Source: an uncultured Roseicyclus sp. (lineage in GTDB: Bacteria; Pseudomonadota; Alphaproteobacteria; Rhodobacterales; Rhodobacteraceae). Taken from it: DNA of 64,000 bases. Positions 3,553 through 64,000 of this stretch are shown here, piece after piece (position 1 is the stretch's first letter; the number at the start of each line of letters is the position of its first letter). The stretch spans positions 1,150,501 through 1,214,500 of the forward strand of contig CANLEH010000001.1 in the NCBI GenBank assembly GCA_947489665.1, given 5' to 3'. A program made the translations under genes and the position numbers. The notes below the pieces were generated by a model. That model worked only from the letters and a program-made list of their open reading frames with translations, ran no database searches and had not been told where the DNA came from.

Positions 3553-5063
3553 TGAACCGCCGCTCCTCGCTTGCGCTCCTCGCAGCTGCCATGGCCTCCC
3601 CGGCCTTTGGCCTGCCGATGTTCCGCGAAGGCAGCGCACACCCCTTTGATCGCGATTGGCTGGTCGCCGAGGCGCAGCGCCTCAGCCTTGCCCCCTACCA
3701 GCCGCTGCCCGAAGTTCCGCAGGGCTGGCAGGACCTCACCTATGACGAATACCGCTGGATGTGGTTCAACCCCCAGCGCGGCCTCTGGATGGACGAGGAC
3801 CGCCCGTTCAAGGTCGATTTCTTCCACCCCGGCCTCTACTTTCCCCGGCCCGTTGAGGTGAACGTCGTCCAAGGCGGCGAGGCGCAGACCCTCGCCTTTG
3901 ACCTTTCCCTCTTCGACCGCACCGATCAATTCCCGGACCTGCCGATCACCGAGGAAATGGGCTATTCCGGCCTCCGTCTGCGCGCCGCTTTGGAACGGCC
4001 CGACATCTTCACCGAATTCGCCGTCTTCCAAGGCGCGAGCTACTTCCGCGCCATCGGCACCGGCATGAATTACGGCCTCTCGGCCCGGGGCCTCGCCATC
4101 GGCACAGCGTCTGAGTCAGGCGAGGAATTCCCCGAATTCACCCGCTTCTGGCTGGAAGCGCCGATGCCCGGCGACACGACCCAAGTGATCCATGCGCTCC
4201 TGGATGGCGACAGCTGCACCGGCGCCTATACCTTCCGCATCACCCCCGGCCCGGTCACGCGGATGCATGTGGACATGAACCTGTTCCCGCGCGTCGACCT
4301 GCCGAATGTGGGCCTGGCCCCGCTGACCTCAATGTTCCTCTACGACCAGACCAACCGCGCGGGCCATGATGATTTCCGCCCCGCCGTGCACGACAGTGAC
4401 GGTCTGATGATCCACAACGGCAACGGCGAGCTGCTCCTGCGCCCCCTCAAGAACCCCGATACGCTGCAAGTGTCGTCCTTCGTGGATCACGATTGCCGGG
4501 GCTTCGGCCTGCTTCAACGCGCCCGCGATCTGGCCGATTTCGAGGATTTCGAAGCCCATTACGAATTGCGTCCCTCACTTTGGGTTGAACCCGGCGAAGG
4601 CTGGGGCGAAGGCTCCGTTCAACTGGTCGAGATCCCGTCCGAGTTGGAGATCTACGACAATATCGTTGCCTATTGGCGCCCGCGTGGCGGATTGATTGCC
4701 GGTAACGATTACCGCCACACCTATACGCTGAACTGGTGCGAAGAACCCGAACGCCCCCGCGATGTGGCCCGCGTGATGAACACCGCCATTGGCGGCAACT
4801 GGAACCGCACCCAAACCCTCGTCGCCATCGACTTCGCCAATCACGAAAGCATCGACGGCGCGCCGGAGGATTTCACCAAGGTTGTTCAGTCCAATCGCGG
4901 GACAGTCACCGAAGGTGTGCTAGAACGTAACCCGGGCACCGGCGGCCTGCGTCTGACCTTCGCCGTCGACCCGGGGGAAGAAACCTACATGGAACTGCGC
5001 GCGCAATTGCTGAAGGAAGGGGAGCCTGTGACGGAAGTCTGGCTCTACCGGCTCTCGGCATGA
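3549..5063 (+). CDS. opgG: Glucan biosynthesis protein G (MdoG/OpgG)
   Basis: MdoG-type sequence (FHPGLYFPRPVEVNVV..., YELRPSLWVEPGEGWGEGSVQLVEIPS); ATGA overlap with opgC stop. Confidence 0.85.
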   Translation: MMNRRSSLALLAAAMASPAFGLPMFREGSAHPFDRDWLVAEAQRLSLAPYQPLPEVPQGWQDLTYDEYRWMWFNPQRGLWMDEDRPFKVDFFHPGLYFPRPVEVNVVQGGEAQTLAFDLSLFDRTDQFPDLPITEEMGYSGLRLRAALERPDIFTEFAVFQGASYFRAIGTGMNYGLSARGLAIGTASESGEEFPEFTRFWLEAPMPGDTTQVIHALLDGDSCTGAYTFRITPGPVTRMHVDMNLFPRVDLPNVGLAPLTSMFLYDQTNRAGHDDFRPAVHDSDGLMIHNGNGELLLRPLKNPDTLQVSSFVDHDCRGFGLLQRARDLADFEDFEAHYELRPSLWVEPGEGWGEGSVQLVEIPSELEIYDNIVAYWRPRGGLIAGNDYRHTYTLNWCEEPERPRDVARVMNTAIGGNWNRTQTLVAIDFANHESIDGAPEDFTKVVQSNRGTVTEGVLERNPGTGGLRLTFAVDPGEETYMELRAQLLKEGEPVTEVWLYRLSA

Positions 5064-6931
5064 AGCTCAGCATAGACCCATATATGCCGCCCGAGGCTCC
5101 GCTGGCCCGCCCCATTCAGAACCTGCGCGCGCCCTACACCGACAAAACCGCACCGGGCGTCGCAAAGACCCGCTCCTGGCTCTGGCGTCTTGCCACCTTC
5201 ATCCCGGCGTTTGCCACCACGCTTGCCCTTGTGGCGGCCTTCACCGACTGGTTCGCCATGGGCGGCCTCACGGGCTTCGAGATTGCGCTGATCACGCTCA
5301 TCGCGCTGACCTTCTTCTGGATTTCACTCTCGGTCTCCACCGTGACCGTCGGCGTCGCGCGCCTGTTCCTCAGTCGCCCACCAGCCGCGCCGACCAATGG
5401 CCCCAGCATGGATGTCGCCCTTCTGGTGCCTTGCTATAACGAAGTGCCATGGGACGTCTTCGGCAATGCCTGCGCCATGCTGGAAGAGTTGGACGCGCAT
5501 CCAACCGACCACCGCTACACCCTCTTCATCCTGTCCGACACGCGGGATGAGGCCACGGCGGAGCAGGAACTTCGCGCCTTCGCCACCCTGCGTGCGCGCC
5601 TGCCGGACCATATCCGCCTCCACTACCGCCGCCGCGCGATGAACACCGACCGCAAGGTCGGCAACCTAGCCGATTGGGTCGAACGCTGGGGCGGCGCCCA
5701 TGACGCGATGCTGGTGCTGGATGCCGACAGCCTGATGTCGGGCGGGGCGATCGTGGCGCTGACCGATGAACTCTCCGCCGATCCCTCCGCGGGCCTGATC
5801 CAGAGCTTCCCGCAGCTTTTCGGGGCAGAAACCGTCTTCGCCCGCGTGCAGCAATTCGCCTCCACCATTTACGGCGCGGTGCTGGCCGAGGGGCTGGCCA
5901 CATGGTCCGACCGGGAAGGCAATTACTGGGGCCATAACGCGATCATCCGCACCGCCGCCTTCGCCTCCTGCGCCGGCCTGCCCAAGATCAAGACCATCAC
6001 CGGCAAAGGCGCGCTGATCCTGTCCCACGACTTTGTGGAGGCCGGCCTTCTGCGCCGCGCGGGCTGGGGCGTGCGCTTCTCCCCCCGCATCAAGGGCAGT
6101 TATGAGGAAGTCCCCGCGACCCTCATCGATTACGTCATCCGCGACCAGCGCTGGTGCCAGGGCAACCTGCAACACCTCAAACTGCTCGCCTCGCGCGGCT
6201 TCCACGGCGTCTCCCGCTTCCACCTCTTCCACGGGGCGGTCAGCTATCTGCTTTCGCCCATGTGGTTCCTGCTTCTGATGACCTGGGCGCTGATCGGCAC
6301 TGGCGCGGATCAGAACGTGATCCGCTACTTCTCGGGCCTCAACCCGCAAGTGCAATGGCCTGAGATGACGGTGGTCCATTCCTCGGCGCTTCTGATCTTC
6401 ATGTACGGCATGCTGCTCGCGCCCAAGGCGCTGGGGGCTGCGGCCATCGGCGGCATCGGCCTGCGCGTGGCCGAGCTTGGCGGCCCGATCCGCTTCGCTG
6501 CGTCGTTTGTGGCAGAGCTGATCCTGTCGATCCTCTACGCGCCCATCCTGATGGTGCAGCAAACCCTTGCCGTGGTCCGCTCGATCCTGGGCCTGAAAGT
6601 CGACTGGAAACCGCAGGCGCGGGCAGGGGGCGCCTATTCGCTCTGGTCGATGCTGAAATTCCACTGGTTGGAGACACTGGCAGGCGCGGGCCTGGTGGCC
6701 GGCATGGCGGCCGGCATCGTCTCTCTCTGGCTGCTGCCCATCGCCGTGTCGCTGGCCATGGCCGTGCCGCTCTCGGCGCTCTCTGGCCTGAACCTCACCC
6801 ACTTCCGCGCCACCCGCCGTGCCCTTGGGACGCCCGAGGTCTACGCCGCACCCGCGATCATCCGCGCCGCCAAGGCGCACCGCGCCGAGCTGCGCGAGAC
6901 GCTGCGCGATCTGCCGGAAGCCGCGGAATAA
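5060..6931 (+). CDS. opgH: Glucans biosynthesis glucosyltransferase H (MdoH/OpgH)
   Basis: GT2 motifs (VALLVPCYNEVPWDVFGN, MLVLDADSLMSG, RDQRWCQGNLQH) and multiple TM segments. Confidence 0.93.
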   Translation: MKLSIDPYMPPEAPLARPIQNLRAPYTDKTAPGVAKTRSWLWRLATFIPAFATTLALVAAFTDWFAMGGLTGFEIALITLIALTFFWISLSVSTVTVGVARLFLSRPPAAPTNGPSMDVALLVPCYNEVPWDVFGNACAMLEELDAHPTDHRYTLFILSDTRDEATAEQELRAFATLRARLPDHIRLHYRRRAMNTDRKVGNLADWVERWGGAHDAMLVLDADSLMSGGAIVALTDELSADPSAGLIQSFPQLFGAETVFARVQQFASTIYGAVLAEGLATWSDREGNYWGHNAIIRTAAFASCAGLPKIKTITGKGALILSHDFVEAGLLRRAGWGVRFSPRIKGSYEEVPATLIDYVIRDQRWCQGNLQHLKLLASRGFHGVSRFHLFHGAVSYLLSPMWFLLLMTWALIGTGADQNVIRYFSGLNPQVQWPEMTVVHSSALLIFMYGMLLAPKALGAAAIGGIGLRVAELGGPIRFAASFVAELILSILYAPILMVQQTLAVVRSILGLKVDWKPQARAGGAYSLWSMLKFHWLETLAGAGLVAGMAAGIVSLWLLPIAVSLAMAVPLSALSGLNLTHFRATRRALGTPEVYAAPAIIRAAKAHRAELRETLRDLPEAAE

Positions 6932-6976: not shown

Positions 6977-7051
6977 CAAACTCTGACCAAATGGACGCTT
7001 TTTTCCGGAAAATTGTGACCAAATGGACGGAGTTCCGACCAAATGGTCACA
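6977..7051. repeat. 75-bp triple-palindrome intergenic element, copy A (minus orientation)
   Basis: Three 12-bp modules GACCAAATGGAC / GACCAAATGGAC / GACCAAATGGTC at 6985, 7017 and 7037, plus shared backbone with copy B at 63757-63831. Confidence 0.85.
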
Positions 7052-7879
7052 TTATTGGTCGAGCGCCTCGTACCAATCGAGCGCCAGATCGGCCCATCCG
7101 CGCGGCACCGCATGGCCGCCGGGGAAGAGCGCGAATGTCAGCGATCCGGCGTCACACGACGTCCAGATCCGCTGCCAATAAAAGCCCTCATTGGTGATCT
7201 CATCGGGCGCAGAGCGGTTGCATCCATTCGTCTCGCGCCAGATCTCCATACCGGCAAAAACATCGCCCTGCCGCACAGCCCCATCGCGGAAAACACGGCC
7301 TTCAATTGGCACGGTTCCGTCCGTCCAGCCATGGGTGTGGAGCACATCGACCGGCCCCGCGCAGGCATCCAGCGCGGGATGTGGTCGCCAGAACGACCCC
7401 GCCACGGGCGCATAGGCGCGCGCAATGTCAGGGGCATCGCAGGCCAGGTAGGATGTCATGGAGCCGCCGATGGAAAACCCTGCAATAACAACGTCTTCAC
7501 GATCAATGCCATGCACTTCCGCCGCGTGGCTGAGCACCTCTTCAAAGTAGGCCGCTTCATCGCGGATGGGCTCGAATTCCGGATGGAACGACCAGGTGGA
7601 GCCGAAGCGAGAGCCTTCCCGTTGCAACCCCTGTGGCCCGATCAAGGCATAGCCGCGCGCCGTCACGGCCTCGCGCAGCATGTTTACCATGCCCTCACCA
7701 CGCCCGCCCGCGCCGTGCAGCATCATCAGGGCAGGGAAGGGGCCTTCGCCCTCCGGCAGCGCGATGTGGTACTCGCCCATCGGCACTTCACACGCCCCCT
7801 CGGCCCCGGCGCAATCGGCAAAAGCAGGGCAAGCTGCCGCCAGAAAACCCAGCGCAGTCAGAGTGTTACGAACGATCAA
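7052..7879 (-). CDS. Secreted PHB-depolymerase-like esterase (LpqC family)
   Basis: LPEGEGPFPALMMLHGAGGRGEGM, GFSIGGSMTSYLAC, signal peptide; TTG start near 7879 inferred. Confidence 0.75.
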   Translation of the reverse strand: MIVRNTLTALGFLAAACPAFADCAGAEGACEVPMGEYHIALPEGEGPFPALMMLHGAGGRGEGMVNMLREAVTARGYALIGPQGLQREGSRFGSTWSFHPEFEPIRDEAAYFEEVLSHAAEVHGIDREDVVIAGFSIGGSMTSYLACDAPDIARAYAPVAGSFWRPHPALDACAGPVDVLHTHGWTDGTVPIEGRVFRDGAVRQGDVFAGMEIWRETNGCNRSAPDEITNEGFYWQRIWTSCDAGSLTFALFPGGHAVPRGWADLALDWYEALDQ

Positions 7880-8324
7880 CCGGCAATCCTTCCCTGATCC
7901 ACCCAGGCCCCGCACCGGACCCGAGCATGCCTTCCGGCACGTCAATGATGTTGGTGAACCCGGCCTCCGTCAGCCGGTTGGTCAGGCGCGACGACCGTAC
8001 GCCCCGCGCACAGATCAGCGCGACGCGAGCATCGGTGGCACCACCGGTAAGCGCTAGTAAAGCCTCGGAAAAATCGTCCCGCCGCATGTCCAGTCGATGG
8101 CCCGAGGCGGGCGAACCCGTCGCCGCCCATTCATCCGGGCGGCGAATGTCGATCAGCAAAATCTCACCGGCGGACGCCATCTCATGGGCCTCACCCACGC
8201 TGATTTGCTCGCCCACATCCTCCGACAGGGCGGCATAGAACAGGTTCCGCCCCTCGGTCGCGGCAAAGCCCACACCGACCAGCGCCAGCGCACCGGCGCC
8301 AATCAGAAACCGTCTGCGGTTCAC
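7866..8324 (-). CDS. Rhodanese-like domain protein with N-terminal signal
   Basis: EILLIDIRRPDEWAATG...VALICARGVRSSRLTNRLTEAGFTNIIDVPEGM; GTG start (VNRRRFLIGAGALALV) inferred. Confidence 0.82.
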   Translation of the reverse strand: MNRRRFLIGAGALALVGVGFAATEGRNLFYAALSEDVGEQISVGEAHEMASAGEILLIDIRRPDEWAATGSPASGHRLDMRRDDFSEALLALTGGATDARVALICARGVRSSRLTNRLTEAGFTNIIDVPEGMLGSGAGPGWIREGLPVDRS

Positions 8325-62362: not shown

Positions 62363-63754
62363 ATGGATTTTCTGGATCAGTTGAAGCAAGCGCTGCCTGC
62401 CGAGGCCTTCCGCGACGTGGGCGCGCAATACCTTGAGGAACCGCGGGGGCGCTGGCAGGGGCAGGCCTTGGCTGTCTGCGCGCCGCGCTCGACGAAAGAG
62501 GTCTCCAACCTACTGAAATTATGCAACGAATCGCGGGTGCCTGTGGTGCCCTATTCCGGTGGGACGGGTCTGGTCGGCGGCCAGATCAAGGAAGATGGGC
62601 CAGCGCCGGTCTTGTTGTCGCTTGAGCGCATGAACGCGATCCGCGCGTTTGATGCGGAGGCCGGGACACTGACGATAGAGGCGGGCGCCGTTTTGCAGGA
62701 CGTCCATGGGATCGCAGAGGATGAGGGCTGGGTCTTTCCGCTGACATTGGCGAGCCAAGGTTCCGCGCGGATCGGTGGATTACTGGCCACGAATGCGGGT
62801 GGTGTGAATGTGATCCGTTACGGCAACGCGCGCGATCTGGTTTTGGGGATTGAGGCCGTTCTGGCGGACGGGACAGGAGTTAACACGCTGTCTCCACTGA
62901 GAAAAAACAACACGGGCTACGATCTGCGGCACCTTCTGATCGGCTCGGAAGGGACGCTTGGCGTCATCACGGCGGCGTCTCTGCGGCTGTTCCCGAAACC
63001 ATCTCAGACCGGTGCGGCCATGATGGCGGTTGCGTCACCGGAGGCCGCGTTGGGGCTTTTGCGACTGGCGCAGAAAGAGGTTGGGGAGGGGATTTCGGCC
63101 TTTGAGCTGATCGGAAAGATGGGCTTCGATTTCCTTTCTGAAGTTGGGCCGGAGGTTCGGCAACCGTTTGAAAACATTCCACAATGGTGCTGCCTGATCG
63201 ATCTGGGCCTGGCCCATGGAAGCTGCGAGGAGGCACTTTTTCGGGTGTTTGAAAAAGCCGCCGAAGAGGGGCTGGTTAGCGATGGCGTCATCGCGCAGTC
63301 CGAACAGCAACGCGCGGACTTCTGGGCGATACGGGAGAATATTCCGGAGGCGAACCGACGGATCGGTTCGGTCTCATCGCATGATATCTCCGTTCCGGTG
63401 GGGCGCATTCCCGAATTCATTGAAAAAGCGCCTGGCCGCTTGGCGGACATAAATGCGTTCAGAATCAACTGCTTCGGCCATATGGGCGACGGGAATTTGC
63501 ATTACAACGTCTTCCCGGTGTCCGGAAAATCCCGCGCGGATCATGAGCATGATCGCGGCGCTGTGAAGGAATGCGTGCACGATTTGGCGCATGAATTGGG
63601 CGGGTCCGTCAGCGCAGAACACGGGATCGGGCGGCTGAAAGTGGGGGATCTTGAGCGTTATGGCGATCCCGGCAAACTGGCCGCGATGCGGGCCATCAAA
63701 GCAGCGCTGGATCCGAACGGGATTCTGAATCCGGGTGCGGTGCTGCGCGCCTGA
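62363..63754 (+). CDS. FAD-binding oxidase (GlcD / D-2-hydroxyacid dehydrogenase type)
   Basis: VPVVPYSGGTGLVGGQ, GSARIGGLLATNAGGVNVIRYGN, GSEGTLGVITAASLRL. Confidence 0.92.
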   Translation: MDFLDQLKQALPAEAFRDVGAQYLEEPRGRWQGQALAVCAPRSTKEVSNLLKLCNESRVPVVPYSGGTGLVGGQIKEDGPAPVLLSLERMNAIRAFDAEAGTLTIEAGAVLQDVHGIAEDEGWVFPLTLASQGSARIGGLLATNAGGVNVIRYGNARDLVLGIEAVLADGTGVNTLSPLRKNNTGYDLRHLLIGSEGTLGVITAASLRLFPKPSQTGAAMMAVASPEAALGLLRLAQKEVGEGISAFELIGKMGFDFLSEVGPEVRQPFENIPQWCCLIDLGLAHGSCEEALFRVFEKAAEEGLVSDGVIAQSEQQRADFWAIRENIPEANRRIGSVSSHDISVPVGRIPEFIEKAPGRLADINAFRINCFGHMGDGNLHYNVFPVSGKSRADHEHDRGAVKECVHDLAHELGGSVSAEHGIGRLKVGDLERYGDPGKLAAMRAIKAALDPNGILNPGAVLRA

Positions 63755-63756
63755 AT

Positions 63757-63831
63757 TGCGTTCCCCTGAACGGAAATACGTTCAACTGAACGCATTTTTT
63801 CAGAAAAGTGCGTTCAGTTGAGCAGAGTTTG
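63757..63831. repeat. 75-bp triple-palindrome intergenic element, copy B (plus orientation)
   Basis: Modules GTTCCCCTGAAC / GTTCAACTGAAC / GTTCAGTTGAGC at 63760, 63780 and 63812; same backbone as copy A. Confidence 0.85.
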
Positions 63832-63835
63832 CCGC

Positions 63836-64000
63836 CTAGCTGCGCACGCCTGAGAATTTTTCGGCCCATTCCCCGCGCTGCTCATCGGCGATTTTTGCGA
63901 ACAACACCTCAGGCACCGTGAAGGCGTGCCCGGCGGGCAGCGCCGTCATCGCGGCATTCGTTGGCCACGCAACCTCCGCTCCCATGGCATCGGCCATCGC
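63836..64000 (-). CDS. C-terminal part of an unidentified protein (truncated by window edge)
   Basis: Open frame on minus strand ending ...[33 protein letters not shown]. Confidence 0.55.

Follow-up and report, generated by a model that had tools for sequence, protein, structure and literature searches.

The locus studied here raises the question of what a 75-bp element built from three short palindromes does at the ends of genes, and of why its two copies in the window (the whole 64,000-nt stretch of DNA that was analysed) spell these palindromes differently. An earlier note had described the two copies, A and B, as a modular and helically spaced triple palindrome of no named family, with a preference for convergent genes, and had proposed that its modules are recognised by a matching factor. 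We found that A and B align over 75 bp without gaps, with 20 of 36 module positions and 30 of 39 backbone positions identical, exactly the figures of that note's hand count. Likewise as described, copy A abuts the stop codon of the putative esterase gene and begins 45 bp past the stop of the upstream ORF at 6931 (Table 1). The backbone pattern TTTTYCNGAAAA-N16-AGAGTTTG recovered both copies with 0 mismatches, compared to 0.01 matches expected in the window.

Table 1. Copies A and B with their neighbouring genes (window coordinates), and sites of the 11-bp-period arrays in G000 and congeners (locus or contig coordinates)
Feature	Position	Strand	Basis
Copy A, constant core of a type-C array (M1-20-M2-32-M3)	6977..7051	-	profile search E 7.6e-22; alignment
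Copy A M1, GACCA-TT-TGGTC	7037..7048	-	
Copy A M2, GTCCA-TT-TGGTC, one arm position mismatched	7017..7028	-	
Copy A A/T block TTTTCCGGAAAA, halfway from M2 to M3	7001..7012	-	
Copy A M3, GTCCA-TT-TGGTC	6985..6996	-	
Copy B, constant core of a type-T array	63757..63831	+	profile search E 3.8e-16; alignment
Copy B M1, GTTCC-CC-TGAAC	63760..63771	+	
Copy B M2, GTTCA-AC-TGAAC	63780..63791	+	
Copy B A/T block TTTTTCAGAAAA	63796..63807	+	
Copy B M3, GTTCA-GT-TGAGC	63812..63823	+	
Putative opgH (name from the earlier note), upstream neighbour of copy A, 3' end toward the M3 side	5060..6931	+	ORF
Putative esterase (name from the earlier note), convergent neighbour of copy A, stop codon abuts M1	7052..7945	-	ORF
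FAD-linked oxidase, neighbour of copy B, stop codon 2 bp before the element	62363..63754	+	L047:107-1498
Methionyl-tRNA synthetase 3' end, convergent neighbour of copy B, runs past the window end	63836..64000	-	L047:1580-3055
11-bp-period array sites, G006 (copy B locus)	L231		
11-bp-period array sites, G001	L212:18113, L219:14275, L223:6583		
11-bp-period array sites, G008	L257:8582		
11-bp-period array sites, G010	L267:17428		
11-bp-period array sites, G000	C1:1768687 and others		

Copy number and taxonomic distribution

When the 4.13-Mb genome of the window (G000) was searched with the backbone pattern, allowing up to three mismatches, 21 matches were obtained, two of them chance-like and one being copy A again. 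A sequence-only profile model built from 18 G000 copies extended this to about 44 loci in G000 (best E 1e-22) and about 41 in the congener G006, with a handful of loci in G010 and a single, decayed one in G001 (G001, G007, G008 and G010 being further congeners); under a stricter filter, the same model detected no copies in the 57 other relatives searched. A dialect-tolerant pattern, which retained only the spacing and a G..CANNTG..C core, gave 37 matches in G000, 30 in G006 and none in 395 further genomes, which represent most genera of the family by one genome each, and no matches were given by its reversed-pattern control. When the GTDB species collection was scanned, matches were confined to uncultured Roseicyclus sp. 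(isolates 2-601 and 3-247-3Z) and to one Pseudomonas, whose isolated match looks like chance. The observation is real and far larger in extent than the earlier note stated, and its expectation of further copies was borne out by the genome-wide scan.

Two of the G000 elements, L079 and L075, are located on the small contigs C7 (79 kb) and C8 (26 kb), which may be plasmids, and have no counterpart in G006. A viral origin was rejected, as there was no match in the viral contigs searched. Rfam covariance models gave no match at the element at six loci with E up to 1, and literature searches returned no description of such elements.

A constant core within a polar array

The collected set of 89 copies (44 from G000, 41 from G006 and four from G010) shares one gap-free frame, with module starts at 0, 20 and 52 in every copy, which confirms the distances of 20 and 32 bp first read from copies A and B. 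Each module consists of two inverted half-sites flanking two free bases, the half-site reading T-[GC]-[CT]-G-[TAC]-[TC]-C-A toward the centre; M2 and M3 are frequently imperfect palindromes, and a TTTTCnGAAAA block marks the midpoint between them. Extra modules are present on the M3 side in 49 of the 89 copies, mostly at +24, +39 or +48/49 from M3 (those at +24 and +48 lying off the shared helical face), whereas the left side has them in 2/89 and the background rate is 0.03 per 200 bp. The 75-bp element is therefore the constant core of a polar array comprising three to six modules. Thus, the term triple element remains valid for this core, but not for the full size, which exceeds three modules in about half of the elements.

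Orthologous arrays change dialect in concert

The number of arms with C at the key position was bimodal across arrays, mostly 0–1 or 5–6 of six, and the variance of this arm-type count in G000 was 6.34, compared to a permutation maximum of 2.34. With regard to location, 38 of the 41 G006 elements occupy loci that also carry an element in G000, in identical orientation and with flanks about 72–93% identical. Since the distance from M1 to the left flank is the same, or within 1–2 bp, at most loci, orthologous arrays can be regarded as the same elements in place. Comparison of the orthologous pairs (G000 versus G006) revealed 15 C/T combinations and one reverse, along with 11 T/T, seven C/C and others mixed. 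The concerted arm change proposed for copies A and B was thus also seen beyond these two copies: half-sites agree within an array and switch together between species, and modules varying independently within a copy, which would have spoken against that proposal, were not seen. The four G010 copies were mostly of type T, which suggests that this is the older type. Arm type was also reflected in backbone columns outside the arms, and backbone identity at switched loci was 0.568, close to the 0.563 of non-orthologues and in contrast to 0.79 for T/T orthologues; the highest within-type backbone identity was 0.83 in G000 and 0.89 in G006.

A dialect-free scan of 400 kb of G001, in which all six arms had to agree at a spacing of 20/32, uncovered a third dialect, CTCCC-G/A..GGGAG, with the half-site TGCTCCCA. 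The corresponding pattern gave 13 real loci in G001 and isolated matches only elsewhere. All 13 arrays lie at loci with a G000 or G006 element and in the same orientation, and in 12 of them M2 and M3 start 43 rather than 32 bp apart, i.e., 11 bp or one helical turn more. A distance of 32 bp was retained by the remaining array, that of the TetR/aminotransferase locus, where G000, G006 and G001 each use a different dialect in the same register and a conserved -35-like TTGACT follows 32 bp downstream. In the more distant congener G007, pairs of CCANNTGG 20 bp apart were observed at the loci of copy A and L028. Given these pairs and the shared loci of the G001 arrays, the arrays look ancestral to much of the Roseicyclus-like genus.

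A RutR-type box, TTGACCAnnTGGTCAA, was found perfectly kept at L044:1619 and at its orthologues L107 and L304-L309, beside genes for a TetR_C_3 regulator and an aminotransferase in all congeners examined. This box lies near one array, and type-C modules resemble its core.

Arrays face the 3' ends of genes

According to gene calls from a simple codon model, the 44 G000 arrays are distributed over 20 convergent, 15 and 6 tandem and 3 divergent contexts. At least one gene 3' end faces the array in 41 of the 44, and the M3 side is faced by a 3' end at 35 loci (p=1e-4). Within 400 kb of G000, arrays are present in 5/17 convergent compared to 2/131 other intergenic regions (p=2e-4), in line with the suspected preference for convergent genes. 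Intrinsic terminators were detected at 2/20 convergent sites with an array and 5/12 without (p=0.07), a difference that is suggestive only of their being rarer where an array is present. The functions of the neighbouring genes are unrelated to each other.

Next to one array found in G000, G006 and G001 lies a 73-residue Cro/CI-type HTH_26 gene (L025:1575-1796), which is a candidate linked regulator.

Arm agreement does not reflect base pairing

The palindromic modules, the T-/A-runs between M2 and M3 and the placement at gene 3' ends could also suit an RNA or cruciform structure, such as a bidirectional intrinsic terminator, an mRNA-end stabiliser or a BIME-like hairpin element, and the folding of copy B is indeed more favourable than that of its shuffled versions (z -6.0 and -3.6). 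Raw covariation was high because all arms of one array resemble each other. When arms were shuffled within dialect type, however, local hairpins showed no pairing excess (z -0.4 for M1, -2.7 for M2 and -1.7 for M3), and the values for a three-way junction were inconsistent (+2.5, -2.4 and -0.6); stronger agreement was displayed by some same-strand arms that are incapable of pairing (3.4 and 3.5). As pairable arms did not agree more than unpairable ones, the arm changes are not compensated in the base-pairing sense in which the earlier note had called them so. Copy A folds poorly (z -1.3 and -2.4) and contains no terminator match, and a hairpin followed by a T-run was present at M2 in 5/89 and at M3 in 2/89 copies, with any such motif within the element in 16/89. 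An RNA folding into a three-way junction or a hairpin, which had seemed attractive when copies such as L063 were viewed singly, was ruled out by these arm statistics, and an intrinsic terminator by the lack of a match in copy A and the rarity of the motif across the 89 copies. All in all, we consider a structure-based explanation very unlikely.

Single modules flanked by A- and T-runs, e.g., AAACTGCGTTCATCTGAACGCAGTTTTTT, were found in the left flanks of L039 and L043 and in the right flank of L065; these look like intrinsic terminators made of the same palindrome.

A second array family with an 11-bp period

At the copy B site, five congeners including G006 carry CTGTAGT every 11 bp, and three others carry GGTATAG/GGTATAT, also with an 11-bp period. 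Similarly, the L072 site harbours ACTACAG repeats in four congeners and GTGTAC-like or TATACC-like repeats in others. These arrays consist of 7-bp direct repeats ending in a palindrome (e.g., CTGTAGT..GTAACTACACGA), and their dialects are uniform within an array and differ at an orthologous locus, as exemplified by GTCTAG at L221:5209 (G001) and GTATAT at L278:5947 (G010). The motif ACTACAGNNNNACTACRG occurs 3–23 times per genome in six congeners, compared to 0–1 for controls, and period 11 is prominent in the intergenic DNA of G001, G008 and G010. What was found at the copy B and L072 sites suggests that the same intergenic site may be served by unrelated arrays.

In addition, a 283-bp convergent intergenic region of G001 (L224:9599) contains four to five AAGGGAGGAGAGG repeats with short inverted repeats flanking them.

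A putative protein-bound boundary and its alternatives

The explanation that we favour, with a probability of about 0.5, is that these fixed-location, helically phased half-site arrays are bound by a sequence-specific protein, likely act as a transcription boundary, and acquire new dialects as the specificity of the protein shifts. To what was directly observed, namely the arrays, their fixed loci and spacing, the agreement within arrays, the dialect switch and the lack of a pairing signal, this explanation adds a putative binding protein, its presumed paralogues and a boundary function. The M1-20-M2-32-M3 modules, often joined by others on the M3 side, would point to roughly the same side of the helix and would most likely be bound cooperatively by a dimeric DNA-binding protein, probably by a small set of paralogues differing in specificity. 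Past the gene ends, the array would most likely constitute a DNA-protein boundary, with a roadblock by which incoming transcription is terminated or insulated. A shift in protein specificity would take all half-sites of an array along, and orthologous arrays would thus differ in dialect (GTTC, GACC/GTCC or TCCC) while location, orientation and helical phasing stay.

Protein-bound DNA is the parsimonious choice because half-sites agree without pairing, the spacing is rigid at about two and three turns, and its change in one lineage amounts to one turn. A boundary or roadblock is favoured over the regulation of particular genes because of the gene-end and convergent placement and because unrelated arrays appear exchangeable at one site. 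Counting against this explanation, two specificities within one genome would require two factors or one in transition, and the extra modules at +24 and +48 do not share the helical face of the others. A matching factor that reads the modules, as the earlier note had supposed, hence stays the likeliest cause, although the factor is putative; among the roles suggested there (termination, insulation or nucleoid organisation), a boundary or termination would fit best given the 3'-end placement, whereas intrinsic termination is discarded.

Dialects could alternatively spread as whole units within a population of extragenic palindromes subject to copy-and-replace turnover (REPIN-like copying, paralogous gene conversion or homing into old arrays), function being secondary. 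Copying is favoured by the new 43-bp spacing common to 12 of the 13 G001 arrays and by the backbone columns that track arm type, both of which also fit whole-array copying, and the lack of orthologous backbone similarity at switched loci points the same way, even though this loss is weak evidence, as neutral sites may be near saturation at the divergence of these genomes. Change in place is favoured by the absence of near-identical copies, with the within-type maxima given above, by the occurrence of all 13 real G001 arrays at old sites and none at new ones, and by a left-flank register that is maintained. Dialects may arise by stepwise evolution in place after a protein change or by the copying and replacement of whole arrays, but turnover with merely secondary function appears unlikely to us. 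A MITE or nonautonomous transposon, proposed on account of apparent terminal repeats, was ruled out by the vertical inheritance at fixed loci and the lack of near-identical copies.

With about 44 dispersed short palindromes and a TTCAnnTGAA core resembling the middle of parS, TTTCACGTGAAA, the arrays might instead be chromosome-organising sites in the style of Noc, ParB or MatP, serving nucleoid occlusion, domain boundaries or SMC loading and unrelated to transcription. At the parS site, TGTTtCACGTGaAACA, the centre is invariably CG, and sequence conservation among bacteria is high. In the arrays, by contrast, the centre dinucleotide is free and the half-site is different, which led us to reject parS identity; moreover, arms differ between congeners, and the bias toward 3' ends and convergent genes would be unexpected, so such a role is decidedly improbable. 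Ordinary operators of a transcription-factor regulon are scarcely credible: the palindromes are operator-like, type C resembles the RutR operator, and one array precedes the -35-like TTGACT, but only 3 of the 44 G000 arrays are divergent compared to 20 convergent, and the neighbouring genes have unrelated functions. As to a dedicated factor, the RutR-like TetR (PF08362) was discarded, as it is single-copy in 13/13 congeners, array-less ones included, whereas arrays are found in few.

Returning to the protein-bound boundary, we tentatively propose an undescribed class of locus: ancestral, fixed-position phased arrays whose binding language would be replaced in concert genome-wide, one species after another, along with a fast-evolving putative boundary protein, and which at some sites could give way to an unrelated 11-bp-period array doing the same job. 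The specificity of multi-site DNA-binding proteins is usually thought to be locked. If the proposal is true, these arrays, whose orthologous loci use at least three dialects and whose spacing has changed by one helical turn at 12 of 13 loci of one lineage, would exemplify how a binding code is naturally rewritten across a whole genome, and close relatives could be compared as a direct test. They may also represent an unrecognised means by which transcription units are closed between convergent genes in Rhodobacteraceae.

Comparison with known systems

In line with the absence of a named family from the earlier note, the arrays were, on the features tested, not REP elements, intrinsic terminators, MITEs, parS or members of an Rfam family. 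Intrinsic bidirectional terminators share the convergent-gene position and the T/A tracts beside palindromes, but the stems of the arrays are mismatched and do not covary, and the terminator motif is confined to few copies. With parS/Noc-type sites, the arrays have in common palindromes of similar length, the TTCA..TGAA core and dispersed copies; they differ in the free centre dinucleotide, another half-site, fast-changing arms, organisation in fixed arrays and the convergent-gene bias. The operator of RutR-type TetR regulators, TTGACCAnnTGGTCAA, contains the GACCAnnTGGTC that is also found in type-C modules, in contrast to which the arrays comprise several modules, use other dialects and are placed at gene ends. 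Similar in appearance are the REP/BIME/REPIN sequences, extragenic palindromes tagged with GTAG and CGTC (PMC3733652, PMC8049555), which are likewise short, present in dozens of copies, located outside genes at ORF 3' ends or between convergent genes, and divided into family-specific variants. The arrays, however, carry no constant GTAG/CGTC tag across copies or dialects (CGTC occurring only inside some type-C half-sites), show no stem covariation when shuffled within dialect type, and are distinguished by a rigid multi-module spacing and by their residence at fixed orthologous loci (38/41 in G006, 13/13 in G001) rather than in a mobile population.
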